Source: Paraburkholderia sabiae (GTDB taxonomy: Bacteria; Pseudomonadota; Gammaproteobacteria; Burkholderiales; Burkholderiaceae). From it: a stretch of 64,000 nucleotides of DNA. This document shows, in pieces, positions 36,160-52,099 of the stretch. The stretch covers positions 3,782,001 to 3,846,000 of the forward strand of contig NZ_CP125295.1 of assembly GCF_030412785.1 (NCBI RefSeq). The letters are read 5' to 3'. A program made the position numbers and the translations under genes. The notes under the pieces are model-generated. The model ran no database searches and was not told where the DNA came from. It worked only from the letters and a program-made list of their open reading frames with translations. The first letter of the stretch is position 1. The number at the start of each line of letters is the position of its first letter.

Positions 36160-36168
36160 GTTTTTTTT

Positions 36169-36791
36169 GTCTGCGACGCTAGTCGCGATTTTTGGTTTTG
36201 TTGCGGTGGCATCCGCGTTGACGTATCGGTTTGCTAGCGTTGCCCCTGTGCGGGGCGGCACCTACTTTTCTTTGCAGCGGCAAAGAAAAGTAGGCAAAAG
36301 AAAGCCGCTTCAAACCTCCGGTGCCGGCCAGGATAACGCCACGGCACACGTTCCTTGAGCTTTCGCACAGCGACGTCCGGACTCCGTAGAAAGCCCGCAG
36401 TCAGGCGCGCTCGGCGCCAAAGATGACATCCCTTTGGGGCACATTCGGTCGGCTTGTTTTTGTGCGTTTGCCGTCGGATTGCGGCGGTATGTGTTCCGGA
36501 CTGTGTGCGGGATTTTCGCGCCGTGCGCGGTTGACTGCGGGCTTTCTACGGAGTGCGGACGTCGCTGCGCAATAGCTCAAAAAACACATGCCGTAGCGGT
36601 ATCCTGGCAGGCACCGGAGGTACAAAAGCGGCTTTCTTTTGCCTACTTTTCTTTGCCGCTGCAAAGAAAAGTAGGTGCCGCCCCGCACAGGGGCAACGCT
36701 AGCAAACCGATACGAATTCGCGGATGCCAGCAAAAACCAAAAAAGCAGAAACCCAAAATCAAAAACCAAAATGGCGACTAGCGTCGCAGAC
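36169..36791. repeat. 623-bp inverted-repeat intergenic element, copy 1 (complete)
   Basis: Ends are GTCTGCGACGCTAGTCGC (36169-36186) and its exact complement (36774-36791); each end contains the mini-hairpin GCGAC-GCTA-GTCGC. Inside, long sub-terminal segments are also inverted copies: the GCCCCTGTGCGGGGC hairpin, a 14-bp hairpin CCTACTTTTCTTTG...CAAAGAAAAGTAGG at 36261-36294 and 36642-36675, and ACTCCGTAGAAAGCCCGCAG near 36380 with its complement near 36540. The centre (36400-36530) is unique. It fills the whole gap between convergent prfC and lysR. No transposase is encoded. Confidence 0.9.
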
Positions 36792-36797
36792 AAAAAA

Positions 36798-37667
36798 TCA
36801 AGACATACTCAAAACCTGCTCCCGCATCCAACTAGCAAAAGCCTGCACATGCTCGAGCCCAGCATGCCGCGCAGCGATATCAAGCCAATACCCGTAGGGA
36901 CCACTAACCTCGATATCAGACATAGGCGCAAGGCTGCCTTCAGCCAATTCCTCAACAATCATATTCCGATCAACGATCGCCAGCCCAACACCCTTGCGCG
37001 CAGCATGAATAGCCTGCTCGAGTGTCGAAAACTCGATCCCGTTCTCGCTATACCGCGCAGGCAAGCCAGCCTTATCGAGCCAATCCGGCCAAAGATTCAA
37101 CCGCGCATCGTTGTGCAGCACATGCAGCGCGGGCAGCGTCTCCAGCAACTTGTCGAGCGCCTCGCCGCCGAACCGCGGCGAACCAACCAGCGTATGACGC
37201 TCGATCATCAGCAGCTCGGAATGCGCATCGGGCAACGCGTCGCGGCCGAAACGGATGTTGCAGTGACAATCGTCGGTGGGTCCAGTGCGCACGGACAGCT
37301 CGACGTCCGGCAACTCGACGGCCAGCGAGCCGAGCCGCGGCGAAAACCATTGCGTCGCAAAAGTAGGCGGCACGGATAGCACAAGGCGTCGGCGGCCCTT
37401 CGCCGTCGTGACCTGGCGCGTGCCGCGTTCGAGCGTATCGAAGGCTTCCGACACGCACGGCAAAAGCTGCTGACCAGCCTTCGTCAGCCGGATGCCCTTG
37501 TGATCGCGCTCGAAAAGCTTCGCGCCAAGCGACTCTTCGAGAATCTTGATCTGCCGGCTGACGGCGCCCTGCGTCACGCACAGCGCTACGGCCGCGCGGT
37601 TGAAACTCATGTGCCGTGCCGTCTCTTCGAAAAAGCGCAACGCGATCAGCGAGGGCAAACGCCGCAT
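36798..37667 (-). CDS. LysR-family transcriptional regulator, GcvA-like
   Basis: 289 residues from ATG 37667, with AAGGAAGA a few bases upstream on its strand; the frame is open further upstream without a site. The N-terminal winged HTH (LIALRFFEETARHMSFNRAA, LCVTQGAVSRQIKILEE) is followed by the effector-binding domain (about 90-289) of the GcvA type (FATQWFSPRLGSLAVELPDV). Divergent from the Pat-like acetyltransferase gene, which is therefore a candidate target. The repeat element ends six bases after its stop. Effector unknown. Confidence 0.92.
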   Translation of the reverse strand: MRRLPSLIALRFFEETARHMSFNRAAVALCVTQGAVSRQIKILEESLGAKLFERDHKGIRLTKAGQQLLPCVSEAFDTLERGTRQVTTAKGRRRLVLSVPPTFATQWFSPRLGSLAVELPDVELSVRTGPTDDCHCNIRFGRDALPDAHSELLMIERHTLVGSPRFGGEALDKLLETLPALHVLHNDARLNLWPDWLDKAGLPARYSENGIEFSTLEQAIHAARKGVGLAIVDRNMIVEELAEGSLAPMSDIEVSGPYGYWLDIAARHAGLEHVQAFASWMREQVLSMS

Positions 37668-38025
37668 AAATCTTCCTTCAGTCTCATCTTCTTCTCTGAC
37701 TCGCCGGCAGTAGATGGCCGGCGGGCATGCTCCCCGTGCATTCGACATGCGGCACGCCATCGCGTCGCCCGTCGCGCCGCGGCGGGAAGCGGCGCCGCGA
37801 GCTGTGCGGCGATTCTACATGCTGCGCCAGACGCGGCGTGCGCTGGCCGCGGAAACCATGCGCTAACATCGGATGGAAAGCGGCAGCGGGGACTGGCCTA
37901 TCGCATGCATGAGACCGACATCGCGGCGTCTTCGCGCATCGCCTATCCTGATGACTGATGAAACCGCGCGCGCCCGATGCGCCCAGATGCCCGGCGCGCG
38001 CACTCACCTCATTCGCGGAGCGCCC

Positions 38026-40449
38026 GTGACCGTACGCAATCTCGACGCGTTGTTTCGCCCGAAATCCGTCGCCGTGATCGGCGCCTCGGACCGCCCCGGC
38101 AGCACGGGCGCGATGGTCTGGAAGCGGCTGATCGAAGGCGGCTTCGACGGCCCCGTGTGGGCCGTCAATCCGAAGTACGACATGCTCGACGGCCACTCGT
38201 GCGTCGGCAATGCGGGCGATCTGCCCGACGCGCCCACGGTCGCGATCGTCTGCACGCCATCGTCGACGTGGCCCGGTATCGTCCACACGCTCGGCGGACG
38301 CGGCACGCGGGCGGCGATCATCGTCGGCGAAGTGCGCGGCGAGGAAGGCCGCGCCGACGTGCGTCATATGCTCGCCGCCGCGCGTCCGCATCTGTTGCGG
38401 ATCGTCGGGCCGGGCAGCCTCGGCATCGTGACGCCCGCGCTCAAGGCGCATCTCGGCGCGCCGTCCGTGACGGTGCGGCCGGGCGGCGTCGCGTGGGTGT
38501 CGCAGTCGAACGCGCTGACGAACGCGGTGCTCGGCTGGGCGCACGCGCGCGGCCTCGGTTTTTCGCACGCGCTCGCGCTCGGCGACGAAGCCGACGTCGA
38601 TGCCGGCGACGTGCTCGACTATCTGGCAAGCGATCCCGCCACGCGCGCGATCCTGCTCGAAGTGGATTCGGTGAAGGCGGCGCGCAAGTTCATGTCGGCG
38701 GCGCGGGCGGCGGCGCGCAACAAGCCGGTGCTGGCGCTCCGCTCGGGCCGCAGCGATCCCGACGACGCGCTCTACACGGCCGCTTTCCGCCGCGCGGGCA
38801 TGGTGCGCGTCGATGCGCTCGACGATCTGCTCGACGAAATCGAAACGCTCGGCGTGGGCCGCGTTGCAGCGGGCGCGACGGCGACGCTGATCACGAGCGA
38901 CCGCGGCGTCGCGACGCTCGCCACCGACGCCTTCAAGGCGGCCGGCGACACGCTCGCGCCATGCCCATCGGGCGCCGTCGATGCGCTCGCGCAGGCGCTG
39001 CCGCGTGCCAGACCGGGCAATCCGCTGCTGCTCGGCAGCGACGCGCGCGCCGAGCATTTCGGCACGGCGCTCAAGGTGCTCGCCGACCAGCGTTCGACGG
39101 GCACGGCTTTCGTCGTGCACGCGTCGACGCACAGCGCGCCCGTCGAAGAAGTCGCGCAGGCGCTGATCGCGAATCAGCGCTACGCGTATCGCGGACTGCT
39201 CGCGTGCTTTTTCGGCGGCGTGAAGCGTGAAACGCGGGACGCCTTGCACGAACACGGCATTCCCGTCCACACGACGCCGCAGCGGCTCGCGCGCGCGTTC
39301 GAGCGTCTGGTCGAATATCGCCTCGTGCGCGAACTGCTGATGCAGACGCCCGAAGGCCAGCCCGCGCGCGTGCCCGAAGCGATCGATGCCGCGCAGGCGC
39401 AGGCGTGCGCGGCGCTGTCGTCGGGCGTGACGGAACTCGAAGGCGACGACGCGGCGCGGCTGCTCGCGCACTTCGGCCTTCGCACCATTCCCGACGTTGC
39501 GCGCGAACAAGCCGTCGTCGATATCTCAGTCGAACTGCGCGACGACGACAACTTCGGCCCGGTGTTCCGCTTCACCGCGCCGCCCGAGCACGACGAAGCG
39601 CGGCCGATGTGCGTGTTCGGCCTGCCTCCGCTGAATCCCGTGTTGTCGCGCGACATCCTGTCGAACTCCGCGTATTTCCGCGCGGTCGCGCCCGAGCCTG
39701 TGCTGGGCGCGTTCACGGCGATCTCGCAGGCGGTGTCGGAGATACGCGAGATCGTGTCGCTGAAACTCGCGTTGCGCGTGATGAAGAACGGCGCGGCGAT
39801 CGTCGCGCCGCGTTTGCGGCTGTCGGCGAGCCGCACGCGCTTCGCGATCATGCCGTATCCGCGGCGCTACGAAGAAACGCTCGACTGGCGCGGTCAGCGC
39901 ATCACGGTGCGGCCGATTCGTCCCGAAGACGAGGCAGCGCATCGCGAGTTCGTCGAATCGATGACGCCCGACGATTTACGTCTGCGCTTTTTCGGTGCGG
40001 TCGGCAGCTTCGACCATTCGCAACTCGCGCGCATGACGCAGATCGACTACGACCGCGAGATGGCGCTGATCGCGACGACGCGGAACGACGACGGCTCGAT
40101 ACGCACGCTCGGCGTGGTGCGCGCCGTCGCGGACCCGGACAACGAAACGGCCGAATTCGCGATGGCCGTGCGTTCGGATCAGAAGGGAAGAGGCTTGGGG
40201 CGGCTGTTGATGGAGCGCATCATCGCGTACGCGCGGGCGCGCGGCACGCACTGGATCGTCGGCGAGGCGTTGCGCGAAAACTCCGCGATGATCGGCCTCG
40301 CGACGGCCGTTGGTTTCACGACGGCGCGCACCGAGGATCCGGGCGTCGTCGGCTTCAGAATGGCGCTCGAACAGCCGGACGACGCCAAACAAAAAGGCGG
40401 CGCACCGGGGTTCGGCGCGTCGCCTGCATGTTCTCCGAACACGCGCTAG
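38026..40449 (+). CDS. Pat-like protein: ADP-forming acyl-CoA synthetase-type domains fused to a GNAT acetyltransferase
   Basis: 807 residues from GTG 38026 (GGAG five bases upstream); in-frame ATGs at 37951 and earlier are possible. Order: CoA-binding Rossmann domain (LFRPKSVAVIGASDRPGSTG), succinyl-CoA-synthetase-like domains (to about 440), a shortened ATP-grasp region (about 465-610), then GNAT (about 640-790) with the acetyl-CoA loop RSDQKGRGLGRLL. This is the layout of protein lysine acetyltransferase Pat, which acetylates enzymes such as acetyl-CoA synthetase and is allosterically tuned by acetyl-CoA; the ligase half is normally inactive. It is shorter than Salmonella Pat. The divergent LysR gene may regulate it. 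Its last codons overlap a terminator for the opposing gene. Confidence 0.88.
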   Translation: MTVRNLDALFRPKSVAVIGASDRPGSTGAMVWKRLIEGGFDGPVWAVNPKYDMLDGHSCVGNAGDLPDAPTVAIVCTPSSTWPGIVHTLGGRGTRAAIIVGEVRGEEGRADVRHMLAAARPHLLRIVGPGSLGIVTPALKAHLGAPSVTVRPGGVAWVSQSNALTNAVLGWAHARGLGFSHALALGDEADVDAGDVLDYLASDPATRAILLEVDSVKAARKFMSAARAAARNKPVLALRSGRSDPDDALYTAAFRRAGMVRVDALDDLLDEIETLGVGRVAAGATATLITSDRGVATLATDAFKAAGDTLAPCPSGAVDALAQALPRARPGNPLLLGSDARAEHFGTALKVLADQRSTGTAFVVHASTHSAPVEEVAQALIANQRYAYRGLLACFFGGVKRETRDALHEHGIPVHTTPQRLARAFERLVEYRLVRELLMQTPEGQPARVPEAIDAAQAQACAALSSGVTELEGDDAARLLAHFGLRTIPDVAREQAVVDISVELRDDDNFGPVFRFTAPPEHDEARPMCVFGLPPLNPVLSRDILSNSAYFRAVAPEPVLGAFTAISQAVSEIREIVSLKLALRVMKNGAAIVAPRLRLSASRTRFAIMPYPRRYEETLDWRGQRITVRPIRPEDEAAHREFVESMTPDDLRLRFFGAVGSFDHSQLARMTQIDYDREMALIATTRNDDGSIRTLGVVRAVADPDNETAEFAMAVRSDQKGRGLGRLLMERIIAYARARGTHWIVGEALRENSAMIGLATAVGFTTARTEDPGVVGFRMALEQPDDAKQKGGAPGFGASPACSPNTR
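40391..40424 (-). terminator. Terminator for the 40480 gene embedded in the end of the Pat-like gene
   Basis: On the minus strand a stem of about 11 bp (GGCGACGCGCC with GGTGCGCCGCC; one mismatch and one G-U) is followed by TTTTTG. It lies inside the final codons of the opposing pat-like gene, so both functions share the same bases. Confidence 0.6.
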
Positions 40450-40479
40450 ATCGCGCGCTCGATGTTCGGGTGAATGCGC

Positions 40480-41022
40480 TCAGGCCGCGAGTTTTGTCGA
40501 GGCCGCGTCCACCTGCTCGCGCGAGACAGCCAGTTCGTCGAGCCATTCGGGCGCATACGTTGCGCCCGTTTCGCGTTCGAGACGCGCGATCGTCGCGGCG
40601 CAGCGCATGGCGTCCTTGGGCGTCGCGATGAACGACTTCACCGATTGACCTGCCGTGAACGCTTCGAAGAGCGGCACGCGCACTTCGTCGGGCAGCGCAC
40701 GGGTCCATTGATACGGCTTGCCGTTGAACGTCACGGTCGGCGGAAGCACGCGTTCTTTTTTCGCGGCGGGAATCAGGCCGAAGTTACGCGCGGCGTCACC
40801 GATCTGATCGGCGGAAAAGAGTTCGTCGGGCGTGATGTCGAACTGGGCGATGAAGGTTTCGATCTGCTTCATCGCGGCGGCGCGGTCATCGCGTTTTTGC
40901 TGCGCGCGCGAGACGATTTCGCGGAGTTCGTCGGCTTCTTCGCTGGTGATGGTGAAGTTCGCCTGCTTTTGCTGGAGGTCGGAGAAACGGTGGAATTCGG
41001 AGTCGGAGAGGAGTTTTGCCAT
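40480..41022 (-). CDS. Hypothetical cytoplasmic protein (180 aa)
   Basis: Start ATG at 41022 (MAKLLSDSEFHRFSDLQQKQ). The frame remains open to 41163 but that part lies in the dispersed repeat and should not be included. The first 60 residues are a charged helix, probably coiled coil; the middle ITPDELFSADQIG recalls the linker of H-NS-like proteins; the second half (PPTVTFNGKPYQWTRALPDE, then RVPLFEAFTAGQSVKSFIAT) does not match the H-NS DNA-binding motif. No signal or membrane segment. Convergent with the Pat-like gene (30-bp gap). Family not recognised; a nucleoid-protein relative is only a suggestion. Confidence 0.75.
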   Translation of the reverse strand: MAKLLSDSEFHRFSDLQQKQANFTITSEEADELREIVSRAQQKRDDRAAAMKQIETFIAQFDITPDELFSADQIGDAARNFGLIPAAKKERVLPPTVTFNGKPYQWTRALPDEVRVPLFEAFTAGQSVKSFIATPKDAMRCAATIARLERETGATYAPEWLDELAVSREQVDAASTKLAA

Positions 41023-41085
41023 ATCGATTGCGCGTGGGCGCAAAGTGCTTTTTTGCGAGGGGCCGTATTTTAGCCTATGGTTTTT

Positions 41086-41554
41086 GTCTGCGACGCAGTC
41101 GCCATGCTTTGGGTTTTGGTTTTCGCTGGCATCCTTTGAGCTGTCGCGCAGCGACGCCAACACTCCGTAGAAAGCCCGCAGTCAGGCGCGCGCGGCGCGA
41201 AAGATGACATCCACTTGCGGCACATTCGGTCGGCCTGTTTTTTGTGCGTTTGCCGCCGGTCTGATTGCGGCGGCATGTGCTCCAGACTGTGTGTGGGTTT
41301 TTCGCGCCGTGCGCGGTTGACTGCGGGCTTTCTACAGAGTGCGGACGTCGCTGCGCAATAGCTCAAAGAACACATGCCGTAGCGGTATCCTGGCAGGCAC
41401 CGGAGGTTTGAAGCGGCTTTCTTTTGCCTACTTTTCTTTGCCGCTGCAAAGAAAAGTAGGTGCCGCCCCGCGCAGGGGCAACGCTAGCAAACCAAAACGA
41501 ACACGCGGATGCCAGCGCAGCAAAAAACCCAAACAGGCGACTAGCGTCGCAGAC
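41086..41554. repeat. Inverted-repeat intergenic element, copy 2 (469 bp, left arm shortened)
   Basis: Left end GTCTGCGACGCAGTCGC (41086-41102, one base shorter than in copy 1), right end as in copy 1 (41537-41554). The centre with GCCCGCAGTCAGGCGCGC and GGCACATTCGGTCGGC and the whole right arm, including the 14-bp hairpin at 41427-41460, are conserved. The left arm lacks the matching hairpin block. It lies between the start of the 40480 gene and the stop of the FAH-family gene (seven bases away). Confidence 0.9.
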
Positions 41555-41561
41555 AAAAAAC

Positions 41562-42410
41562 TCAATCCGCCGAATAAGTCTTCTGCGTCTGCTCCCCAAG
41601 CCCCTCAATTCCTAAACGCACTGTCTGCCCAGACTTCAAATACACAGCCTCGGGCTTCACGCCCATCCCAACCCCTGGCGGCGTGCCGGTAGAAATCACA
41701 TCCCCCGGCTGCAAGCTCATACACTGCGACAGATAAGAAACCAGCTTGGCAACGCCAAACACCATGGTCTTGGTGCTGCCGTTCTGATACCGATGCCCAT
41801 CCACCTCGAGCCACATCTTCAGGTTCTGGACATCGGCCACTTCGTCGCGAGTAACGACCCACGGCCCGATCGGCCCGAACGTATCGAAGCCCTTGCCCTT
41901 GTCCCACTGACCCGCTCGCTCGATCTGCCATTCGCGTTCGGACACGTCGTTGATCACGCAATAGCCCGCGACGTAATCGAGCGCATTAGCCTCGTCGACG
42001 TACTTCGCTTCCTTGCCGATCACCACGCCCAGTTCCACTTCCCAGTCGGTCTTCTTCGAACCGCGCGGAATTTCAATGCCGTCGTTCGGACCGACGATCG
42101 CGCTCGTCCACTTGTTGAACACGACTGGCTCGGTCGGCACGGGCAGATTCGATTCAGCGGCATGGTCCGCGTAATTCAGACCGATACACACGAACTTGCC
42201 GATCTTGCCGACGCACGGCCCGATACGCGGATTGCCTTCGACCACCGGCAGCGACGCCGGATCGAGCGCACGCAGCTTCGCGAGCGACGCGTCCGACAAC
42301 GCGCTGCCGTCGATATCGGCGACCACGTTCGACAGATCGCGAATCTTGCCTTGCGCATCCAGCAAGCCCGGCTTTTCCTGGCCCTTCGGTCCATAACGAA
42401 GCAGTTTCAT
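41562..42410 (-). CDS. Fumarylacetoacetate hydrolase family protein, probable 2,4-diketo-3-deoxy-L-fuconate hydrolase
   Basis: 282 residues. FAH fold: an N-terminal cap (KLLRYGPKGQEKPGLLDAQG) then the catalytic domain with metal ligands in DWEVELGVVIGKEAKYVDE and the TGTPPGVGMG loop. It should hydrolyse a C-C bond in a beta-diketo acid, here giving pyruvate plus L-lactate as the last step of oxidative L-fucose breakdown (function from context). ATG 42410 has AGGAAAC upstream. Last gene of the nine-gene operon, 57 bp after the SDR gene; the stop is followed by a T tract and the repeat element. Annotated elsewhere often as ureidoglycolate lyase, a family-level name. Confidence 0.88.
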   Translation of the reverse strand: MKLLRYGPKGQEKPGLLDAQGKIRDLSNVVADIDGSALSDASLAKLRALDPASLPVVEGNPRIGPCVGKIGKFVCIGLNYADHAAESNLPVPTEPVVFNKWTSAIVGPNDGIEIPRGSKKTDWEVELGVVIGKEAKYVDEANALDYVAGYCVINDVSEREWQIERAGQWDKGKGFDTFGPIGPWVVTRDEVADVQNLKMWLEVDGHRYQNGSTKTMVFGVAKLVSYLSQCMSLQPGDVISTGTPPGVGMGVKPEAVYLKSGQTVRLGIEGLGEQTQKTYSAD

Positions 42411-42467
42411 CGCTGCAGTTTCCTCTGTTCAGTGATTCCGTGGTTCATAAATGTCGATGCCGCGCGC

Positions 42468-43211
42468 TCAGTTCGACCAGCCGCCGTCGATCACATGCGC
42501 CTGGCCCGTCGTGAACGCCGACTCGTCGGACGCCAGATACAACGCCAGCGCCGCGATCTCCTCCGGCTTGCCGACGCGACCCATCGGCTGACGCGCGACG
42601 AACGCGGCATGCACCGCGTCGACCGTTGCGCCTTGCGCCTTCGCCTGTTCTGCAATGCGCTGTTCGAGCGAAGGCGAGTGTACCGTGCCAGGACAGATCG
42701 CGTTGCAGCGCACGCCGCGCGTCACGAAGTCCGCGGCGATGGCCTTGGTCAGACCGATGACAGCGGCTTTCGATGCACCATACACGAAGCGGTTCGGCAC
42801 GCCCTTCACGCTCGACGCCGCCGACGACATATTGATGATCGACCCGCCGCCCTTCTCCAGCATCGCGGGCAAGAACGCGCGGATCATCCGGTACATCGCC
42901 TTCGCGTTCAGATCGAAGGCGAAGTCCCAGTCCTCTTCGCTCGCTTCGAGAATCGAGCCCGCGTGCACATAGCCCGCGCAATTGAACAGCACGTCGATCG
43001 GGCCGAGTTCCTGCGCGAGCGCCTTGATCGCCGCGCCGTCGAGCACATCGAGCTTGCGCGCTTCGACGGGCTTGTCCTTGAGCGCGTCGATGCGAATGTC
43101 GGTCGCGATGACGCGCGCGCCTTCACGCGCGAAAAGCTCGGCTGTCGCAAGGCCGATGCCCTGTCCCGCTGCCGTGATCAGGGCCGTCTTCCCGGCCAGT
43201 CTTTGTACCAT
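42468..43211 (-). CDS. SDR oxidoreductase, probable 2-keto-3-deoxy-L-fuconate dehydrogenase
   Basis: 247 residues, classical short-chain dehydrogenase. Cofactor loop TAAGQGIG; the following acidic region ATDIRID indicates NAD preference; NCAG, the catalytic Ser in INMSSAAS, and YGASK with Tyr and Lys. It should oxidise the C4 hydroxyl of 2-keto-3-deoxy-L-fuconate to the diketo acid used by the adjacent FAH-family hydrolase. The function is inferred from operon content. ATG 43211 has GGGAG upstream. About 97 bp separate it from the lactonase gene. Confidence 0.88.
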   Translation of the reverse strand: MVQRLAGKTALITAAGQGIGLATAELFAREGARVIATDIRIDALKDKPVEARKLDVLDGAAIKALAQELGPIDVLFNCAGYVHAGSILEASEEDWDFAFDLNAKAMYRMIRAFLPAMLEKGGGSIINMSSAASSVKGVPNRFVYGASKAAVIGLTKAIAADFVTRGVRCNAICPGTVHSPSLEQRIAEQAKAQGATVDAVHAAFVARQPMGRVGKPEEIAALALYLASDESAFTTGQAHVIDGGWSN

Positions 43212-43308
43212 TTAAGGCTCCCATTGGATTGGCGTTTTGGTCATACCGGGTATTGCAACGGCTGCTCACCGGCGCGAACGTGGAAATCTCGATGCAATCA
43301 CAAACCGG

Positions 43309-44139: not shown

Positions 44140-44154
44140 GATGTGTTCGAACCG

Positions 44155-45195
44155 CTAGTCCTTCGGCACAGGTGCGCGCGTATCGAGCAACCCTTTATCG
44201 CGCAGCGCGTGCCAGAGTTCGGCGGGAATGGGCTTGTCGAACGAAGCCACATTCTCGCGCAGTTCGGCCGCATTGCGCGCGCCCGTCAACACCGTGGCGA
44301 CAGCGGGATGCGCATAAGGAAACTGCAGCGCGGCCGCAGCAAGCGGCACGCCATGCACCTTGCACACGGCTTCGAGACGCGCGACGCGTTCAATGACTTC
44401 CTTCGGCGCCTCGCCATAGTTGAACTTCAGATCGCCTTCGACGCCGCGCGCGAGAATCCCCGAATTGAACGCACCGCCCAGCAGAATGCTGACGTTGCGC
44501 TTTTCGCATTCGGGCAGCAGGTCTTCGAGTGTGGCCTGTTCCAGCAGCGTGTAGCGGCCCGCGAGCAACGCACAGTCGATATCGAAGTCACGCATCGCAT
44601 CGAGAATCGCCGCGCCTTCGTTGACGCCGAGACCCACCGCTTTCACGACGCCTTGCGAACGCAGATCGTCGAGCGCGCGAAAGCCGCCGCCTTGCGTCAG
44701 TTGCTGCCAGTAGTGCGCGTTGCGCTCGCCATGCGTCGTCACACCGATGTCGTGCACGAGCAGGATGTCGATATCGATGATGCCCAGACGCTGCTGGCTG
44801 TCTTCGAACGAACGCAGGATACCGTCGTGCGTGTAGTCGTAAATTGCTTCGAAGGGCAGCGGGTTTTGCCAGCCTTCGCTGCCGTCATATGGGTTCTTGC
44901 GCGGCACGTAATGACGGCCCACTTTGGTCGACAGCACGAACTCGCTGCGCGGATAACGCCGCAGCGCATCGCCGAGACGATGCTCGGCCTTCGTGTGTCC
45001 ATAGTGCGGCGCCGTATCGAAGTAACGCACGCCCGTGTCCCACGCGGCCTGAACGGCGCCGAACGCTTCTTCGTCGGTCAGATCGCGATAGAGCCCGCCA
45101 AGCGGCGCGGTGCCGAGACCCAAACCCGTGACTTCGAGCGAGCGTCGTCCGATGCTGCGCCGCTTGCGCACGTTTGATCCTGCCGCATCCGTCAT
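44155..45195 (-). CDS. Aldo/keto reductase, probable L-fucose (D-threo-aldose) 1-dehydrogenase
   Basis: 346 residues from ATG 45195 (GGGGAGCGAGACG upstream). AKR tetrad: Asp60, Tyr65 (TAPHYGHTKAEHRLG), Lys91 and His138 (DILLVHDIG). The sequence type is that of D-threo-aldose / L-fucose 1-dehydrogenases, which oxidise the sugar to the lactone with NAD(P)+. First enzymatic step of the pathway encoded by this operon, following the importer and dehydratase genes. The frame is open beyond 45195 into the dehydratase end but without signals. Confidence 0.9.
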   Translation of the reverse strand: MTDAAGSNVRKRRSIGRRSLEVTGLGLGTAPLGGLYRDLTDEEAFGAVQAAWDTGVRYFDTAPHYGHTKAEHRLGDALRRYPRSEFVLSTKVGRHYVPRKNPYDGSEGWQNPLPFEAIYDYTHDGILRSFEDSQQRLGIIDIDILLVHDIGVTTHGERNAHYWQQLTQGGGFRALDDLRSQGVVKAVGLGVNEGAAILDAMRDFDIDCALLAGRYTLLEQATLEDLLPECEKRNVSILLGGAFNSGILARGVEGDLKFNYGEAPKEVIERVARLEAVCKVHGVPLAAAALQFPYAHPAVATVLTGARNAAELRENVASFDKPIPAELWHALRDKGLLDTRAPVPKD

Positions 45196-45223
45196 CGTCT
45201 CGCTCCCCTGTTCTTTGATCTGC

Positions 45224-46531
45224 TCACCGCGCGGCCACGTTGACCACCCGATGCGGCAGCGCCGCATTCGCAGGCAGGCACGCCGGCCCGACGGGCTCGA
45301 AGGTCTTGTACGTAAGGATAAACTCCTGGTGCCCGAGCGACTCGGATTTCGACGCCGCGCCCTGCGCGACGGCGAGCGTCAGATCGAACACTTCGCGGCC
45401 CACTTCGTCGAGCGTCGCGCGGCCCTCAAGGATACGCCCTGCATCGACATCCATGTCGCCCGACAGATTGCGATACGTATTCGGATTCGCGCAGACCTTG
45501 ATGACGGGCGAAATCGCCGAGCCGACCACGGAGCCGCGTCCCGTCGTGAACAGGATCACATGCGCGCCGCACGCGATCAGTTCGGCAATCTCTGCGTTGT
45601 CGCTGATGTTCGGAAAGCCGAAACGCGGCTCACCGTCGGGCACGACGTCGAGCAGATAGAGCCCGCCCGTCGGTGGCACGTCACCCGGCTTCACGATGCC
45701 GACGATCGGCGATGCGCCGCTCTTCGCATATGCGCCCAGCGACTTCTCTTCCTGCGTCGTCAGTCCGCCGTCCGCGTTGCCGACGGCGAAGCTGCCGTGA
45801 CCGAGTATCGAGTAATAGCGCGCAGCCTTCGCGACACACGCGACGATCTCATCGCCGAGATCGTCACGCGCGGCGCGGCTTTTCATATGGAACTCGCAGC
45901 CGACCAGCTCGCCCGTTTCTTCGAAAATGCAGGTCGCGTCGTGCTCGATGAAATGATCGAACGCGCGGCCCACGGCCGGGTTCGCCGTGATGCCGCTCGT
46001 GCCGTCCGAGCCGCCGCAGATCGTGCCGATCACGAGTTCCGAGAGCGCCATCGGCACCTTCTTCTGCTTCGCGATTTCGCTGCGCGCTTCGCGCACCCAG
46101 TCGACACCGTATTGAATCGTGCTGCGCGTGCCGCCTTTTTCCTGAATCGTCAGCACATGAACGGGACGGCCGCTCGCTCGCACGACGTCGACGAGATAGT
46201 GCTTGTTCATGCTCTCGCAACCGAGCGACACGAACAGCACCGCGCCGACGTTCGGATGCGTCGTCAGCTGCTCCATCATCTTTTCGGCGTAGCTGTTCGG
46301 ATAGCAGCCGGGAAAGCCGATCAGATGAACGGGCGATTCGAGTTCCGCGGAAGCATCGCCGAATGCATCGAGCGACGGACGAAACTGCGCAACAATTTCG
46401 CGTGCCACGTGATGCGCACATTCGACGAGATACGCCACCGCGACCACGTTGCGGATGCCCTTGCGTCCATCGCTGCGCAGATAGCCTTCGAGCACAGGCG
46501 AGGTCCCATTTGCTACGGTCAGGTCGGTCAT
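45224..46531 (-). CDS. UxaA-family sugar-acid dehydratase, large subunit (probable L-fuconate dehydratase)
   Basis: 435 residues matching the C-terminal catalytic part of altronate/galactarate dehydratases: EGYLRSDGRKGIRNVVAVAY, GCYPNSYAEKMMEQL, FVSLGCESMNK, GGSDGTSGITANPAVG and the long C-terminal section CANPNTYRNLSGDMDVDAG. Such enzymes use iron to dehydrate aldonic acids to 2-keto-3-deoxy acids. In this operon the expected substrate is L-fuconate; most described L-fuconate dehydratases belong to the enolase superfamily, so this would be a different solution. The N-terminal domain is a separate gene (46547). The ribosome site is weak and the two genes are 15 bp apart. Confidence 0.88.
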   Translation of the reverse strand: MTDLTVANGTSPVLEGYLRSDGRKGIRNVVAVAYLVECAHHVAREIVAQFRPSLDAFGDASAELESPVHLIGFPGCYPNSYAEKMMEQLTTHPNVGAVLFVSLGCESMNKHYLVDVVRASGRPVHVLTIQEKGGTRSTIQYGVDWVREARSEIAKQKKVPMALSELVIGTICGGSDGTSGITANPAVGRAFDHFIEHDATCIFEETGELVGCEFHMKSRAARDDLGDEIVACVAKAARYYSILGHGSFAVGNADGGLTTQEEKSLGAYAKSGASPIVGIVKPGDVPPTGGLYLLDVVPDGEPRFGFPNISDNAEIAELIACGAHVILFTTGRGSVVGSAISPVIKVCANPNTYRNLSGDMDVDAGRILEGRATLDEVGREVFDLTLAVAQGAASKSESLGHQEFILTYKTFEPVGPACLPANAALPHRVVNVAAR

Positions 46532-46546
46532 GTTCGTTTGGCCCGC

Positions 46547-46855
46547 TCAGTGATGAACGAATGCGTGGCCTGCGTCGTGCGTGTACGTCGGCAGGTAATC
46601 GCTTTCGAGGTTGTGCGTGTGCAGATGTTCGCCGCGCGCGACATCGACATTCACGTGGCCGATCACCGCGCCGTAGCGCAGCACTTTTTCATCGGCGTGC
46701 AACGCGCGGCGCGCGAGTTTGTGGCCGAGTTCGATCGTCTTCGCGAGCGTCACGTGCTCGCCTTCGATCTCGATCTGCGTGCCAGCTTCGAGCCGCGCGG
46801 CGGCGATCAGGCAGTTGTCGTCGGGGCTCAGAAGAATGAGGCGGCGATCCGTCAT
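46547..46855 (-). CDS. UxaA-family dehydratase, small (SAF-domain) subunit
   Basis: 102 residues forming the SAF-type N-terminal domain of altronate dehydratases (LLSPDDNCLIAAARLEAGTQ, IELGHKLARRALHADEKVLR, then YGAVIGHVNVDVARGEHLHTHNLES with its metal/phosphate-proximal His cluster). In UxaA of E. coli this is fused to the large domain; here it is encoded separately, directly upstream of it in the operon. Its start codon abuts the permease stop, so it is translationally linked to the importer genes. Confidence 0.9.
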   Translation of the reverse strand: MTDRRLILLSPDDNCLIAAARLEAGTQIEIEGEHVTLAKTIELGHKLARRALHADEKVLRYGAVIGHVNVDVARGEHLHTHNLESDYLPTYTHDAGHAFVHH

Positions 46856-46856
46856 G

Positions 46857-47882
46857 TCAGTTTTGTCCTTCGCCGCTGGCGAGTCGCGCGACCATCAGCG
46901 AGCCGAGAATGATGGCGCCATAAATGGCCTGAATCCAGAACGACGGCACCTGTGCAAGCGTCAGCAGGTTCTGCACGACGCCGAGCAGCAGCACGCCGGA
47001 GAGCGCGCCGAGCATCGTGCCCTTGCCGCCGTCGAGCGAAATGCCACCGATCACGGCCGCCGCGAACACGGTGAAGATCATGCCGTTGCCCTGATTCGCG
47101 TTGATCGCGCCGACGTAGCCCGTCACGACGAGTCCACCGATCGACGCGAGCACGCTGCCGAGCACGAACACGCCCCACGTGATGCGCTCGACGCGAATGC
47201 CTGCAGCGCGCGCCGCTTCCGGATTGCCGCCAATCGCATACAGCGCGCGGCCCAAGCGGTGATAACGCAGCATGAACGCAGCAATGCCGAACGCAATCGC
47301 AGCGAGCCACACGGACAGCGGCAAGCCGAGCACGATGGTCGTCGCGAGCGCGAAGAACGACGGCGGCATATCGAACAGCGTGCCGCCCTTCGTCGCGCCA
47401 ACCAGCATACCGCGCAACACGATCAGCATCGCGAGCGTGACGATGAACGCGTTCAGTCGCAGCCGCACGACGAGAAAGCCGTTGATGAAACCGATCAGCG
47501 CGCCAACCACGACGATCGCCAGCAAGCCGGCAGCAGCGGGCCATTCGAACCCGAAGCCCGCCGACGCCACGGGCATCACGAGCATCGCGCCGATTGCGGG
47601 CGCAATGCCGACCGTCGATTCGAGCGAGAGATCGAACTTGCCCGTCAGCACGATCAGCGATTCGGCCAGCACGACGAGCGCCAATGCTGCCGATGCGCCC
47701 AGCACGCTGATCAGATTCGCCTTCGTCAGAAAGCTCGGGCTGACGAACGCGCCGATCACGATCAGCAGCGCGAGCGCGGGCACCAGCGCGAGATCGCGCA
47801 GGCGCGCGAACTCGATGCGCGGACGCGCGGCGCCGGCGCCCACTCCTTGAGCCGCGGCAAACGCGGGCACACTATTCTTCAT
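46857..47882 (-). CDS. Sugar ABC transporter permease (RbsC type)
   Basis: 341 residues, about 9-10 hydrophobic segments. It has the binding-protein-dependent permease signature of the ribose/xylose family (NPEAARAAGIRVERITWGVF, FVLGSVLASIGGLVVTGYVG). Start ATG 47882, ten bases inside the end of the ATPase gene and preceded by AAGGAG, so coupled translation. Middle component of the importer that probably brings L-fucose into the cell. The C-terminus is followed within two bases by the dehydratase small-subunit start. Confidence 0.92.
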   Translation of the reverse strand: MKNSVPAFAAAQGVGAGAARPRIEFARLRDLALVPALALLIVIGAFVSPSFLTKANLISVLGASAALALVVLAESLIVLTGKFDLSLESTVGIAPAIGAMLVMPVASAGFGFEWPAAAGLLAIVVVGALIGFINGFLVVRLRLNAFIVTLAMLIVLRGMLVGATKGGTLFDMPPSFFALATTIVLGLPLSVWLAAIAFGIAAFMLRYHRLGRALYAIGGNPEAARAAGIRVERITWGVFVLGSVLASIGGLVVTGYVGAINANQGNGMIFTVFAAAVIGGISLDGGKGTMLGALSGVLLLGVVQNLLTLAQVPSFWIQAIYGAIILGSLMVARLASGEGQN

Positions 47883-49410
47883 GGAGACTGACTCCTTCAA
47901 CGGATGCGATCAGGTCGTTGTCTTCCCAACCCGCCGGAAACTCGGCCGCGATGCGGCCACGGAACATCACGAGCACGCGGTCGCATGTGCGCAGATCGTC
48001 GAGCTCGCCCGATGCGACGATCACCGCCTTGCCTTCGTCGCGCACGCGATCGACGACTGACAGCAACGCTTCTTTCGATTTCACGTCGACGCCTGCTGTC
48101 GGATCGATCAGCACGAGCACATCGGGATCGGTTGCGAGCGCGCGTGCCATCACCACCTTCTGCTGATTGCCGCCCGACAGACCCGACACCACATGCTCCG
48201 GCCCTTGCGCGACGATGCCGAGCGCGTCGATCATCTTCTTGCCGAACGCGTTCTTCTTCGCGGGCGGCGCAATGCCGAACTTGCCGAGCACGCGCGCAAT
48301 CGTCATCGATGCGTTTTCCGCGACCGATTGCGTCAGCACAAGTCCTTCGTGATGGCGATCCTTCGGCACGCAGCCGATACCGCGCTTCAATGCAGCGGGC
48401 ACGTCGCCGGGCGGCAGCGCTTTGCCGTCGACATGGATGCTGCCGCGCTGCGGCTTGCGCAATCCCGCGATCGCTTCCGCGACGCTCGTGCGTCCGCTGC
48501 TCGTCGCGCCCGTAATGCCGACGACTTCGCCGCGCTTCACTTCGAACGACACGTCGTCGTAGTCCGCGCCCGCGAGTCCTTCGACCTGCAACGCGACGGC
48601 CGTATCCGAAGGCAGCGGCGCGCGCGTCGCGGCATCGGTGACGTTCAGTCCGCCGCGCTCGCCCGTCATCGCTTCGATCAGCTTGTCGCGCGGCAACGCA
48701 GAAACAGGCGCGCTGACGATATGCCGCGCATCGCGCAACACGGTGACGGCCTGGCAAATCTCGTACACCTCCTGCAGATGATGCGAGATGAACAGGAACG
48801 TCACGCCTTCGCGCTGCAACTCTTCGATGCGTGTGAAGAGCCGCTTGATTTCGTCGCCGTCGAGTTGCGCGGTCGGTTCGTCGAGAATGATGAAGCGCGC
48901 GCCATACGACAGCGCCCGCGCGATCTCGACGAGCTGCCGCGCTTCGACGGAGAGATCGCCCGCTCGCGCGTCTTCACGCACGTCGATCTTCCAGTGATCG
49001 AGCAGCGCGCGCGCATCACGGCGCATCGCGCGCCAGTCGATCACGCCATTGCGCGTCTGCTGCCGGTTGATGAACAGATTCTCCGCGACGGACAGCTCGC
49101 GGATGATCGTCGAATGCTGATAGACGCACGCGACGCGTTCGCGCCACGCATCGCGGTCGGCAATCGGCGGCGCAGCTTCGCCACCGAAGCGCACTTCGCC
49201 CGTGTCGGACTTGCGCAAGCCGGTGAGGATCGATACGAGCGTCGATTTGCCCGCGCCGTTGCGCCCGACGAGCGCATGCGACTCGCCGGGCATCACGCGC
49301 ATGCTCACGTCTCTCAGCGCCGCGTGGCTGCCGAAGCGCTTGCCGACGCCAAGCGCTTCGACGACCGCGCGCGTGGATGCGTTCGCGTCGTGGGTCATTT
49401 CAGCGCTCAT
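47872..49410 (-). CDS. Sugar ABC transporter ATP-binding protein (RbsA type, two ATPase domains)
   Basis: 512 residues with duplicated ATPase domains. The first has Walker A GRNGAGKST, signature LSVEARQLVEIARAL and Walker B FIILDEPT. The second has the usual altered P loop GATSSGRTS and an intact signature LSGGNQQKVVMARAL, as in RbsA/XylG/MglA proteins. It energises sugar import with the permease and binding protein on either side. The start ATG overlaps the stop of the binding-protein gene (ATGA at 49407-49410). Confidence 0.94.
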   Translation of the reverse strand: MSAEMTHDANASTRAVVEALGVGKRFGSHAALRDVSMRVMPGESHALVGRNGAGKSTLVSILTGLRKSDTGEVRFGGEAAPPIADRDAWRERVACVYQHSTIIRELSVAENLFINRQQTRNGVIDWRAMRRDARALLDHWKIDVREDARAGDLSVEARQLVEIARALSYGARFIILDEPTAQLDGDEIKRLFTRIEELQREGVTFLFISHHLQEVYEICQAVTVLRDARHIVSAPVSALPRDKLIEAMTGERGGLNVTDAATRAPLPSDTAVALQVEGLAGADYDDVSFEVKRGEVVGITGATSSGRTSVAEAIAGLRKPQRGSIHVDGKALPPGDVPAALKRGIGCVPKDRHHEGLVLTQSVAENASMTIARVLGKFGIAPPAKKNAFGKKMIDALGIVAQGPEHVVSGLSGGNQQKVVMARALATDPDVLVLIDPTAGVDVKSKEALLSVVDRVRDEGKAVIVASGELDDLRTCDRVLVMFRGRIAAEFPAGWEDNDLIASVEGVSLHEE

Positions 49411-50456
49411 TTCAACGTATTGCCCCAGAGGTTCTTGTCGTCGACATTCGCCTTCGTCACGAGCGGCGCAGGCAGCTGATCTTCGAGCACGCCCGGCTGC
49501 AACTGGACGATGTTGCTGCCGTGATCGGTCGGACCCGGCTTGAACGTCTGGCCCGCGAGCGCGGCCTTCATGTAATAGAGGCCGTATTTCGCGTAGAGAT
49601 CGGCGGGCTGCGAAATGGTTGCGTCGATTTCGCCCTTGCGGATCGCGTCGAACTCTTGCGGAATGCCGTCGTTGCTGACGATCACAACATGCTTCGCATC
49701 GCCTGCAGGGAACAGCATCTGCTTGCGGCGCAGCGTCTGTAGCGTCGGCGACAGATAGACGCCGCCCGCCTGCATGTAGATCGCCTTCACGTCGGGATTC
49801 GCGGTCAGCAGGCTGTCGAGCGAGCTAGCCGCGACATCGCCCTTCCAGCCTGCGGGAATCTCCAGCAGCGACAGCGCCGGGTAGTTCTTCAGACACGCGC
49901 GGAAGGCTTCCGAGCGGTCGCGTCCGTTGACGGACGCCAGATCGCCCATGATCTGCACGACCTTGCCCGACTTCACATGCTCGCCGATGTACTTGCACGC
50001 GTTCGTGCCGTACGCGCGGTTGTCGGCGCGCACGACCATCGCGACCTTGCCTTGCGTCGGCGCAACGTCGACGGCGACGACCTTCACGTCTTTCGCCGAA
50101 GCCGAATCGAGCGCGCGGCTGATCGCGGCCGAATCGATCGGCCCGACGACGATGCCCTTCGCGCCGAGATTCACCATGTTGTTCATGTCGGTGATCTGCT
50201 GCGCGGGGTCGTTGTTCGAATTGACGGGCGCGAGGATGTCGATGCCCATTTCCTTCGCGTACTTCGGCAGATAGTTGTTGTACGACTGCCAGAACGGCGA
50301 CGTGAGAAGCGGCAGGCCGAGACCGACCTTGGACGAATCGGCGGCCTGCGCGGCCGTGCTGAAGCCGATACCGGCGACGCACGCGGCGGCCACTGCCGCC
50401 GTCAATGCACCCTGAACGAAACGGCGAGCCGCGCGCGGCTCCTTGGCGAAACCCAT
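49407..50456 (-). CDS. Periplasmic sugar-binding protein of the ABC importer
   Basis: 349 residues from ATG 50456 (GGAG eight bases upstream; the frame is open to 50543 but would cross the promoter side). A signal peptide of about 38 residues ends GFSTAAQA. The mature protein is a type I periplasmic-binding fold of the ribose-binding class (GLGLPLLTSPFWQSYNNYLP, NNMVNLGAKGIVVGPIDSAA, ADNRAYGTNACKYIGEH). First gene of the operon, immediately downstream of the promoter with IclR-type sites. Ligand inferred as L-fucose or a related 6-deoxy/D-threo sugar from the pathway enzymes. Confidence 0.92.
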   Translation of the reverse strand: MGFAKEPRAARRFVQGALTAAVAAACVAGIGFSTAAQAADSSKVGLGLPLLTSPFWQSYNNYLPKYAKEMGIDILAPVNSNNDPAQQITDMNNMVNLGAKGIVVGPIDSAAISRALDSASAKDVKVVAVDVAPTQGKVAMVVRADNRAYGTNACKYIGEHVKSGKVVQIMGDLASVNGRDRSEAFRACLKNYPALSLLEIPAGWKGDVAASSLDSLLTANPDVKAIYMQAGGVYLSPTLQTLRRKQMLFPAGDAKHVVIVSNDGIPQEFDAIRKGEIDATISQPADLYAKYGLYYMKAALAGQTFKPGPTDHGSNIVQLQPGVLEDQLPAPLVTKANVDDKNLWGNTLK

Positions 50457-50582
50457 GCTTGTCTCCAATGGCGACCGGCCTTTGCGCTCTGGCGCGGGCT
50501 GCGGTCTGCGTTGTGGGAAGAGGAACCGGCGAACCGGGTACATCGACCTTCGCTTTCTTTCTTATGGGTATTGGTGCACTCA

Positions 50583-50613
50583 TTCACCAATGAACGTATT
50601 ATTCATATACGAA
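50583..50613. promoter_or_regulatory. Two operator-like palindromes overlapping the fucose promoter
   Basis: TTCACCAATGAA (50583-50594) and TTCATATACGAA (50602-50613) both fit TTC-N6-GAA and begin 19 bp apart. One lies in the spacer of the predicted promoter and one at the start site, so a bound regulator would block transcription. The divergent IclR protein is the natural candidate. Confidence 0.65.
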
Positions 50614-50627
50614 CTTTGACAAGTCAA
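50598..50627 (-). promoter_or_regulatory. Sigma-70 promoter of the fucose operon
   Basis: Read on the minus strand: TTGACT (50622-50627), 18-bp spacer, AATAAT (50598-50603). Each hexamer matches consensus at 5 of 6 positions. Transcript start expected near 50590, giving a leader of about 135 nt before the binding-protein gene. Confidence 0.65.
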
Positions 50628-50697
50628 CGTGATGGGCGTGGGTGTTTTCCCTGGAGCGTGGTGCCCTGTGTGACAGTCCTTTGACGGCCGATAATCG

Positions 50698-51507
50698 ATG
50701 CGAAAGCCAATCACCAACCGACTGCTGACGATGGACGTAGAAGAGAAGGACGACGCCGACCGATATCGCGCGCCTGCGCTCGACAAGGGTCTCGACATAC
50801 TCGAACTGCTTGCCGAGCAGAAGAGCGGGCTGACGCGCGCGGAGATCACGAAGCTATTGGGGCGCAACGCGAGCGAGATGTACCGGATGCTGGAGCGGCT
50901 GGTGGCGCGTCAGTACGTGGTGCGATCGGATGGGGGCGACCGTTATTCGTTGAGTTTGAAGCTGTATGCGCTGGCGCATCGGCATCCGCCGATGAACCGG
51001 CTGATTTCCGAAGCCTTACCGTTGATGCAGCGCTTCGCCGCTGATGCCGAGCAGTCGTGTCATCTTGCTGTCTATGACCGTGGCAATCTGCTGGTGATTG
51101 CTCAGGTGGATGGACCGGGGACGTGGGGCATTTCGGTGCGGCTCGGCTCGCGGGTCGGTTTGATCGATACGAGTTCGGGGCGCACGATGCTGGCCTTCCA
51201 GACGTATGAGCAGCGCGAGCATATGCTCGCTGAGCATACGAAGGTTAAGGGCGAGGTGACGATCGATCATGATGCGCTTGAGGCCGCTTGCGCGGCGATT
51301 CGGTCTGCCGGGTTCTCGCAGAAGGATAGTCAGCAGATTTTTGGTGTTACCGATTTGACGTTTCCTCTGTTGACCGCTTCGGGTCAGGCTATTGCGGCTC
51401 TGACTTGTCCGTTTCTTAAGCGGATCGATGAGTATGTGGCGCCTTCGCTCGATGAGGTGACTGGGATGTTGCGGGAGGTCGTCGCTGCGCTCTCTATGGG
51501 AGATTGA
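50698..51507 (+). CDS. IclR-family transcriptional regulator of the fucose-type operon
   Basis: 269 residues from ATG 50698, or 258 from ATG 50731 (MDVEEKDD). N-terminal winged HTH (ALDKGLDILELLAEQKSGLT, LGRNASEMYRMLERLVARQY) and C-terminal effector domain (LPLMQRFAADAEQSCHLAVY, then GLIDTSSGRTMLAF, QKDSQQIFGVTDLTFPLL). Divergent from the nine-gene sugar operon with the palindromes at 50583-50613 between them. Probably a repressor relieved by the sugar or a pathway intermediate. A remnant of the dispersed repeat follows its stop. Confidence 0.92.
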   Translation: MRKPITNRLLTMDVEEKDDADRYRAPALDKGLDILELLAEQKSGLTRAEITKLLGRNASEMYRMLERLVARQYVVRSDGGDRYSLSLKLYALAHRHPPMNRLISEALPLMQRFAADAEQSCHLAVYDRGNLLVIAQVDGPGTWGISVRLGSRVGLIDTSSGRTMLAFQTYEQREHMLAEHTKVKGEVTIDHDALEAACAAIRSAGFSQKDSQQIFGVTDLTFPLLTASGQAIAALTCPFLKRIDEYVAPSLDEVTGMLREVVAALSMGD

Positions 51508-51530
51508 GTTTTTGCTGGTGTTTTCTTTTG

Positions 51531-51670
51531 CTGCCCCGCACAGGGGCAACGCTAGCAAACCGATACGAATTCGCGGATGCCAGCAAAAAAAACAAAAAGC
51601 GAATCAACCAGAACAGCGACTAGCGTCGCAGACACAACAAAACCAAGTAATGGCGACTAGCGTCGCAGAC
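51531..51670. repeat. Inverted-repeat intergenic element, copy 3 (140-bp right-end remnant)
   Basis: Matches the right arm of copies 1 and 2 from GCCCCGCACAGGGGC onward. It ends with GCGACTAGCGTCGCAGAC twice (51616-51633 and 51653-51670), 37 bp apart, which indicates a partial duplication of the end. It lies between convergent iclR and the thioesterase gene; the outer end is nine bases from the latter's stop. Confidence 0.88.
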
Positions 51671-51679
51671 AAAAAAAAC

Positions 51680-52099
51680 CTACTCCACCCCATCCCCAAT
51701 CCGATTAATAGTCCCCTGCGCGACGGCAACAAGCCTCTCCTTATCTCCGTCTGTGACAAACACATTGCACTGACAAGTAGCCTGCTGCCGCCCAACATAA
51801 ACCACTTCAGCACGAGCCATCAAAACCCCATTCACAGCGGGCCGCAAATAATTAATCTTATATTCGCCCGTGACAACCCTAGGCCCAAGCGCCAGAGCAC
51901 CCGCAAAAGTCAGCGCATTATCGGCGAGATAACTGATCACCCCGCCATGCACGAAACCATGCTGTTGCCGCAACTCGTCGCGGATCGGCAGACACAGCGT
52001 CAGCTCGTTCGCGCCCACATACATCAGCTCCGTGCCGAGCAACACGCTGAACGGCTGGGCGTGCAACGCGCCGCGCGCCCGGTCGAGTAGATCTGTCAT
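51680..52099 (-). CDS. PaaI-family hotdog-fold thioesterase
   Basis: 139 residues from ATG 52099 (GAAGGAACGACG upstream). Single hotdog domain with the family motif [20 protein letters not shown], whose Asp is the likely catalytic residue, followed by strands [14 protein letters not shown] and [20 protein letters not shown]. Hydrolyses acyl- or aryl-CoA thioesters in the cytoplasm; substrate unknown. Stand-alone gene converging with iclR. No signal peptide. Confidence 0.9.

Follow-up and report, generated by a model that had tools for sequence, protein, structure and literature searches.

A foldback repeat abutting stop codons in Paraburkholderia sabiae and a strand-specific mutation gradient in its flanks: a possible chronic chromosome break site

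Genomic Context of the Repeat

A stretch of 64,000 nucleotides of the Paraburkholderia sabiae genome (contig NZ_CP125295.1, positions 3,782,001 to 3,846,000; hereafter the window) carries three copies of a foldback repeat, which lie between ordinary genes and touch the stop codons of several of them (Table 1). Among the neighbours, the identities of RF3 (prfC), a LysR-family protein, an FAA hydrolase (FAH) and a thioesterase were confirmed; gene 37987-40449 matches acyl-CoA ligase families only below the cut-off. Rfam gave no match within the window. The original prediction had described a mobile-looking element whose 18-bp ends are reached from stop codons through a T run. Five exact 18-mers are present in the window at the predicted places (0.24 expected; none of 100 shuffles reached five), and the order of stop codon, zero or one G, six to eight T and 18-mer holds at prfC and, on the minus strand, at lysR, FAH and the thioesterase gene. 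The left end of copy 2, which had been named as the exception, is a variant end one base shorter (41086) and faces a gene 5' end 63 nt away. The repeat is confirmed.

Table 1. Positions of the repeat copies, their parts and the flanking zones in the window
Feature	Position	Strand	Remark
Copy 1, full element	36161..36797	.	T8 after prfC stop to A6 before lysR stop
prfC stop, TAG	36157-36159		followed by G at 36160, then T8 of copy 1
lysR stop at right border of copy 1	36798-36800		complement
18-bp end, copy 1 left	36169..36186	+	exact 18-mer search
18-bp end, copy 1 right	36774..36791	-	exact 18-mer search
Inner palindrome 1, copy 1	36261..36294		15-bp perfect arms, 4-nt loop; skew changes sign nearby
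Inner palindrome 2, copy 1	36642..36675	.	
Terminator-like hairpin	36239..36259	+	facing inward from prfC; weak hint only
Mirror hairpin of 36239..36259	36677-36697	-	facing inward from lysR
Copy 2, shorter	41081..41560		left end GTCTGCGACGCAGTCGC at 41086 is a variant
18-mer, copy 2 right	41537-41554	-	
Inner palindrome, copy 2	41427-41460		one intact
Copy 3, right-arm fragment	51531..51678		two tandem end units, then A8
Tandem end units, copy 3	51616-51633 and 51653-51670	-	both on this strand
prfC, last 600 nt	35560..36159	+	C>T 20, G>A 1 vs relatives; element-directed zone
lysR-family gene, last 600 nt	36798..37397	-	C>T 29, G>A 3; element-directed zone
Thioesterase gene, last 300 nt	51680..51979	-	C>T 9, G>A 1

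Anatomy and Folding of the Element

Across the genome, paired ends delimit 35 copies of 194-769 bp, and the 30 copies of 550-720 bp among them fit one consensus alignment. Its outer part consists of the T run and GTCTGCGACGC(T)AGTCGC, followed by a GT-rich spacer, and its inner part of a GCCCC/GGGGC hairpin block, a 15-bp palindrome, inner arms and a loop, after which the mirror image follows. The T run plus GTCTGCGACGC stands inverted at both ends; since the T run is seen at both ends, as T and as A, it belongs to the terminal inverted repeat. Folded as a single DNA strand, copy 1 (36163-36797) forms one hairpin of -309.5 kcal/mol, compared to an average of -117.7 kcal/mol for 20 shuffles (z = -43). 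The element is a long interrupted palindrome able to fold, as is characteristic of fragile palindromes of the SbcCD type. Along the aligned element, base skew flips sign near both palindromes and once more in the middle, a hint that the palindromes are foci.

The end motif mostly comes with the rest of the element: the inner palindrome lies within 250 nt of 94 of 122 ends, so the objection that the end might occur mostly without the rest does not apply. The 18-bp hairpin, on the other hand, is not the conserved unit. Many copies in the genome of the window (G000; the labels G, C and L denote genomes, contigs and loci) are one base short, and the stretches from G047 and G053 keep only T5-8 GTCTGCGACGC, the hairpin half of the 18-mer being missing. 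The exact 18-mer is present in only 3 of 144 genomes of the genus, and the hairpin half is therefore a local variant. Beside ends at locus L146 (G053, near 3051) and downstream of lysR in G107 lie GT-only, telomere-like tracts (GGGGTT and GGTCT repeats), as strong loss of C and A with slippage would make.

Contact With Stop Codons Across the Genome

In the genome (9.9 Mb, 4 contigs), the exact 18-mer occurs 69 times and the reversed control not at all; 66 occurrences lie on C1 (6.6 Mb), 3 on C2 (2.3 Mb) and none on C3 or C4. The conserved end, T5+GTCTGCGACGC (T5GTCTGCGACGC) with at most one mismatch, is found at 118 places, compared to 1 for its control. About 3 kb on each side was analysed for nearly all of the places listed, a set smaller than the full 118, and genes were called by a simple codon model for which the window had served as training sequence; it reproduces the neighbouring genes, though it is not a published gene finder. 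These stretches hold 122 ends, 114 of them outer. Within 16 nt after a called stop lie 78 of the 114 outer ends, 12 face a gene 3' end further off and 24 a gene 5' end; 3 were flagged as lying inside a called gene. Random intergenic positions reach such contact in 4.5% of cases (p about 2e-76), and positions inside element-free convergent gaps in 9.3% (p about 8e-53), so that the enrichment next to stop codons, first noticed in the window, is strong genome-wide. At least four T are present at 95 outer ends, of which 72 abut a stop, with 0-3 nt between stop and T run in 59 of the 72. Gaps that bear the element are convergent in 44 of 79 cases, those without it in 33 of 253; the 33 element-free convergent gaps in the studied loci have a median of 38 nt.

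A Strand-Specific Mutation Gradient in Flanking Genes

The mutation gradient in the flanks is a stronger signal than the adjacency to stop codons. Among fourfold sites of the 78 abutting genes, T has a frequency of 0.38-0.40 up to 120 nt from the stop and of 0.08 beyond 960 nt, whereas in 329 other genes of the same loci it falls from 0.14 to 0.07. The strand affected is the one that points at the element, and background is reached by about 1 kb; the decay length is 343 nt when an exponential is fitted, and a sigmoid does somewhat better. Stop codons are shifted in the same direction: TAG is the stop codon of 31 of the 78 abutting genes, compared to 32 of the 329 others. T was at least 0.11 in all 82 flanks tested and above 0.15 in 77, and reached at least 0.11 on both flanks of 18 of 18 two-sided elements. 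At control 3' ends that lack the element (181 genes), T is only 0.11. The left flanks do not differ from the right ones in any quarter of contig 1, on which the replication origin was not mapped, and no replichore effect was seen across these quarters. Dinucleotide context has a small effect: all contexts for which the data suffice are affected, least so those following G, and a deaminase-type context was rejected. The gradient was replicated in G047 (20 of 28 ends abutting), G053 (11 of 19) and G011 (4 of 8), in stretches that cover part of the known sites of these genomes.

At flanks formed by a gene 5' end, it is the template strand that points at the element. In 22 of the 24 such flanks, this strand has C 0.289, T 0.119 and A 0.069, compared to C 0.438, T 0.062 and A 0.081 on the same strand at 168 control starts. 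The coding strand of L044 has 12 G>A and 1 C>T in the first 400 nt and then 6 and 5. The mutation sign follows the element.

Occupied and Empty Sites in Related Genomes

At three junctions, orthologues with the element have a T of 0.311 (n = 22, range 0.08-0.53), compared to 0.050 in empty clade members (n = 16) and 0.056 in outgroups (n = 27); the difference between occupied and empty orthologues (p about 4e-7) refers to sites sorted by hand on their downstream sequence after the T values had been seen, with 5 ambiguous rows (T 0.144) set aside. When changes were polarised against relatives, the counts for the last 600 nt of prfC and those of lysR added up to 49 C>T and 4 G>A, and in the other classes to 10 C>G to 2 G>C, 6 A>G to 2 T>C and 12 G>T to 0 C>A. 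The control, gene 37987-40449 beyond 600 nt from its stop, has 13 C>T and 12 G>A. The FAH gene has only 4 C>T and 1 G>A, and its relatives are largely occupied too. The changes common to G000 and G011 comprise 40 C>T and 1 G>A. After the split of these two genomes the numbers are 14 to 4 and 8 to 2, with 14 to 15 and 22 to 10 in the control gene; because the later changes still lean the same way, it is plausible that the mutation process is active at present. To the left of copy 3, the last 600 nt of an IclR-family gene (50698-51507) have 9 C>T and 1 G>A, and this gene stops where its relatives read on, its C-terminus being changed.

The sites themselves also differ between genomes. In G106, G047 and G053, about 90 nt (by printed sequence) with a normal two-way terminator separate prfC from lysR; in G000, the element has taken the place of this whole native gap and the terminator is gone, and in G011, too, the element stands at both stops. 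The thioesterase is about 11 codons shorter in G000 than in G047 and G134, and the stop touches the T run in all three. These shifted borders agree with flanking DNA having been lost as far as the gene end and, in one case, into it. At L036, the genes touch in several empty relatives (a local-alignment estimate), and contact with both stops is therefore forced there.

Insertion and Mobility

The notion of a mobile-looking, non-autonomous element stands in part: a repeat with a fixed end is present and no transposase of its own was seen in the paired copies. Inside these 35 copies no transposase gene was detected, small open reading frames within them not being scanned, and no parent insertion sequence (IS) was met among the places examined, which were not searched specifically for one. 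A target-site duplication was not found in 25 pairs (mean longest direct repeat 1.48, compared to 1.38 in shuffled pairs; p = 0.23). Insertion into a pre-existing T tract, as originally proposed, does not agree with the empty prfC and lysR sites: these have no T run after the stop, so the T run was not a pre-existing target and belongs to the element. Some other feature might nonetheless be targeted.

Candidates for mobilisation were considered as well. The two longest copies are not autonomous versions of the element and instead carry an inserted IS481-type element, which was matched in L049 (C1:5008282-5010219) and judged the same by eye in L072 (C1:5248380-5249892). In both, it lies within the inner palindrome, in opposite orientations, which suggests that this palindrome is a target of IS481-type elements. 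The only Y1_Tnp domain detected in the genome (L121, C1:6231808-6232098, in a frame of 237 aa) is not accompanied by the end motif within the 3.3 kb read at this locus, and a mobiliser of the kind of a REP-associated tyrosine transposase (RAYT; REP, repetitive extragenic palindrome) was rejected on these grounds.

Distribution Among Relatives

Of 144 genomes of the genus, 14 carry the motif T6GTCTGCG in expanded number (9 to 81 places), and the other 130 have it 0 to 3 times. Together with G014, the 14 expanded genomes are the 15 best prfC matches among the 143 genomes with a match, so that by prfC similarity, which is not a tree, the carriers look like one clade. Among the matches listed, the end was found repeatedly in Paraburkholderia piptadeniae, P. 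diazotrophica and P. franconis and in strains including Tr-20389, Ac-20365, LEh10 and C35. The inner palindrome is present in other carriers, and was found in none of 299 other genomes of the order, a sample that includes no other carrier.

Three single minimal forms, L217 (G014), L218 (G034) and L219 (G109), consist of two facing ends 16-24 nt apart without the inner element; in G014, the minimal form fills a 50-nt gap at the L068 junction. Such a short end-to-end palindrome was rejected as an ancestral family, as it is found in only 3 of 144 genomes, at one place each. The minimal form may be a collapse product or a seed.

Similar motifs were seen in distant sequences. In rumen Prevotellaceae, T6GTCTGCGACGC is followed by an ACGAATG-type repeat at L226, L233, L239, L255, L258 and L286 (one metagenome-assembled genome), and the same combination occurs in other Prevotellaceae at L227, L250, L251 and L291; these matches may be due to chance, about 30 chance matches being expected for the 17-mer there by estimate. 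A metagenome-assembled genome of Chlamydiae contains the palindrome T5GTCTGCGACGC - 18 nt - GCGTCGCAGACA5-6 at L234 (2740-2779) and L240 (3420-3459), at both places between two other hairpins. Four stretches with the end motif come from viral contigs.

A Possible Break Mechanism and Its Alternatives

The reading considered slightly more probable than not is that a clade-specific foldback repeat of about 620 bp, similar to a miniature inverted-repeat transposable element (MITE) and apparently lacking coding capacity of its own, behaves as a chronic chromosome break site. The starting point would be the structure described above, one long quasi-palindrome that holds two short perfect palindromes. 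When single-stranded or extruded, the element would fold and be cut, most likely by a hairpin nuclease of the SbcCD type, leading to a two-ended double-strand break. Resection from 5' to 3' would then bare the 3'-ended strand that points at the element, over some hundreds of bases on each side, and the bared strand would gain the C>T changes observed, with C>G and A>G, declining to background by about 1 kb. Spacer DNA might finally be lost until the element touches the stop codons, the limit that selection allows; the terminator between prfC and lysR would have been lost in the same way. Since the mutated strand is the 3'-ended strand at a break on both sides, a two-ended break with resection gives the sign that is seen, which outward transcription, break-induced synthesis or a single stalled fork would not be expected to give at both flanks. 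The wider claim, that about 100 foldbacks per genome are chronic two-ended break and resection sites driving strand-specific hypermutation of neighbouring genes in one Paraburkholderia clade, is made tentatively, its chances of holding being close to balanced.

Several points weigh against breakage as the cause. Breakage itself is deduced from sequence. Gene 5' ends show a weaker effect than 3' ends do, so that transcription may contribute, and gene 40480-41022, at the 5' flank of copy 2, has no element-directed excess. L044 was picked for a polarised count after its high T had been seen, and its contrast in fourfold T is small (0.136 occupied vs 0.095 empty). In L042, fourfold T is 0.104 occupied vs 0.064 empty, and the polarised comparison has only 3 empty references and no counts. 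Ends without a palindrome within 900 nt have a T of 0.255 (n = 11) vs 0.309 (n = 65); with p = 0.098, a dependence of the gradient on the palindrome is not significant. The control gene 37987-40449 also has 6 G>T and 0 C>A, so this class does not discriminate. Lastly, the adjacency to stops could result from targeting by a lost transposase.

This last point leads to the first alternative, an unlikely one that nevertheless fares best: site-specific insertion behind stops or into terminators by a lost or distant transposase, the flank mutations being a separate matter. The tight contact at 59 of 72 abutting ends agrees with it, and so does L036, where the touching genes of the empty relatives place the site itself at the stops; REPs, too, are mostly found downstream of coding regions (PMC3733652). 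However, the empty prfC and lysR sites lack a T run, no target duplication was found, and the only Y1_Tnp has no end motif beside it. Moreover, the native gap between prfC and lysR has been lost, and the border of the thioesterase stop is shifted by about 11 codons between species with contact kept.

Considerably less probable is transcription-associated mutagenesis, in which convergent genes are transcribed into the element, RNA polymerase stalls at it and R-loops expose the non-template strand to deamination. Indeed, 90 of 114 outer ends face a gene 3' end, where the mutated strand is the coding strand and where the effect exceeds that at 5' ends. Yet element-free 3' ends show little of it, and at 5' flanks the element-pointing strand is depleted of C (0.289 vs 0.438 in controls) without the rise in A that coding-strand C>T would bring; on the coding strand of L044, G>A likewise outnumbers C>T. 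The strand is switched next to genes that point away from the element, so transcription alone is no explanation, and the sign at 5' flanks speaks against it as the sole cause.

Replication-fork stalling at the hairpin, with single-stranded gaps on the lagging-strand template, is highly improbable. Long hairpins do hinder replication, and the fork-facing flank would be mutated on the right strand, but 18 of 18 two-sided elements have mutations on both flanks, on opposite strands, and no quarter of contig 1 shows a difference between the left and the right side. Hardly more can be said for a selected 3'-end module, in which end and T run act in RNA as terminator or stabiliser: the two arms of copy 1 do have inward terminator-like hairpins at matching positions and the native terminator is absent where the element sits, but the T run stands before, not after, the first hairpin, terminator-like sites in the region are not clearly in excess (12 vs 6.9 in shuffles, sd 3.0), fourfold-site changes hundreds of bases away are left without explanation, and the hairpin half is lost in G047 and G053.

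Relation to Known Systems

Like prokaryotic MITEs, the element is short, repeated and intergenic, has terminal inverted repeats and shows no transposase of its own; it differs from them in that no target duplication or parent IS was found, and in its giant foldback and flank gradient (PMC10969869). With REPs and bacterial interspersed mosaic elements (BIMEs), which are associated with RAYTs, it shares palindromic structure, many copies and a position in convergent gaps and behind coding regions (PMC3733652). REPs, however, are 20-40 bp long with GTAG or CGTC tags (PMC3733652), while the present element has a GTCT end with a non-conserved hairpin, is about 620 bp long and has no RAYT beside it; it thus falls outside the REP definition in both tag and length.

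A long interrupted palindrome is also the substrate cleaved by SbcCD in E. coli, and the nuclease and two-ended break with repair proposed here would be akin to that case (PMC3315005; PMC8386832). The E. coli palindromes are engineered single loci at which breaks were shown (PMC3315005; PMC8386832), whereas the element is natural and present in many copies, and its breaks are deduced from evolutionary scars. A precedent for the mutations is known from yeast, where an inverted repeat leads to a break, single-stranded flanks and mutations on both sides, up to 8 kb away and dependent on polymerase zeta (PMC3681665). The flanks described here differ in extent (less than about 1 kb), in the strand-specific C>T, in belonging to bacterial genomes and in having formed over evolutionary time. 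A literature search found no description of the element or of such gradients, most subscription papers lying outside its coverage.

Implications

When mutation pressure varies locally in bacterial genes, replication strand and transcription are usually given as the causes. In the present case, a repeat that looks selfish seems to create a local field of strand-specific mutation, by which the ends of ordinary genes, prfC among them, are rewritten at scores of places in a single genome as well as in related species. The break model offers an explanation without targeting for repeats that hug stop codons. If it is true, the flanks would record, for a natural lineage, how far and on which strand resection ran and what spectrum of damage followed; break sites could then be readable from genome sequence alone, and the same scan for skew could find fragile sites elsewhere.

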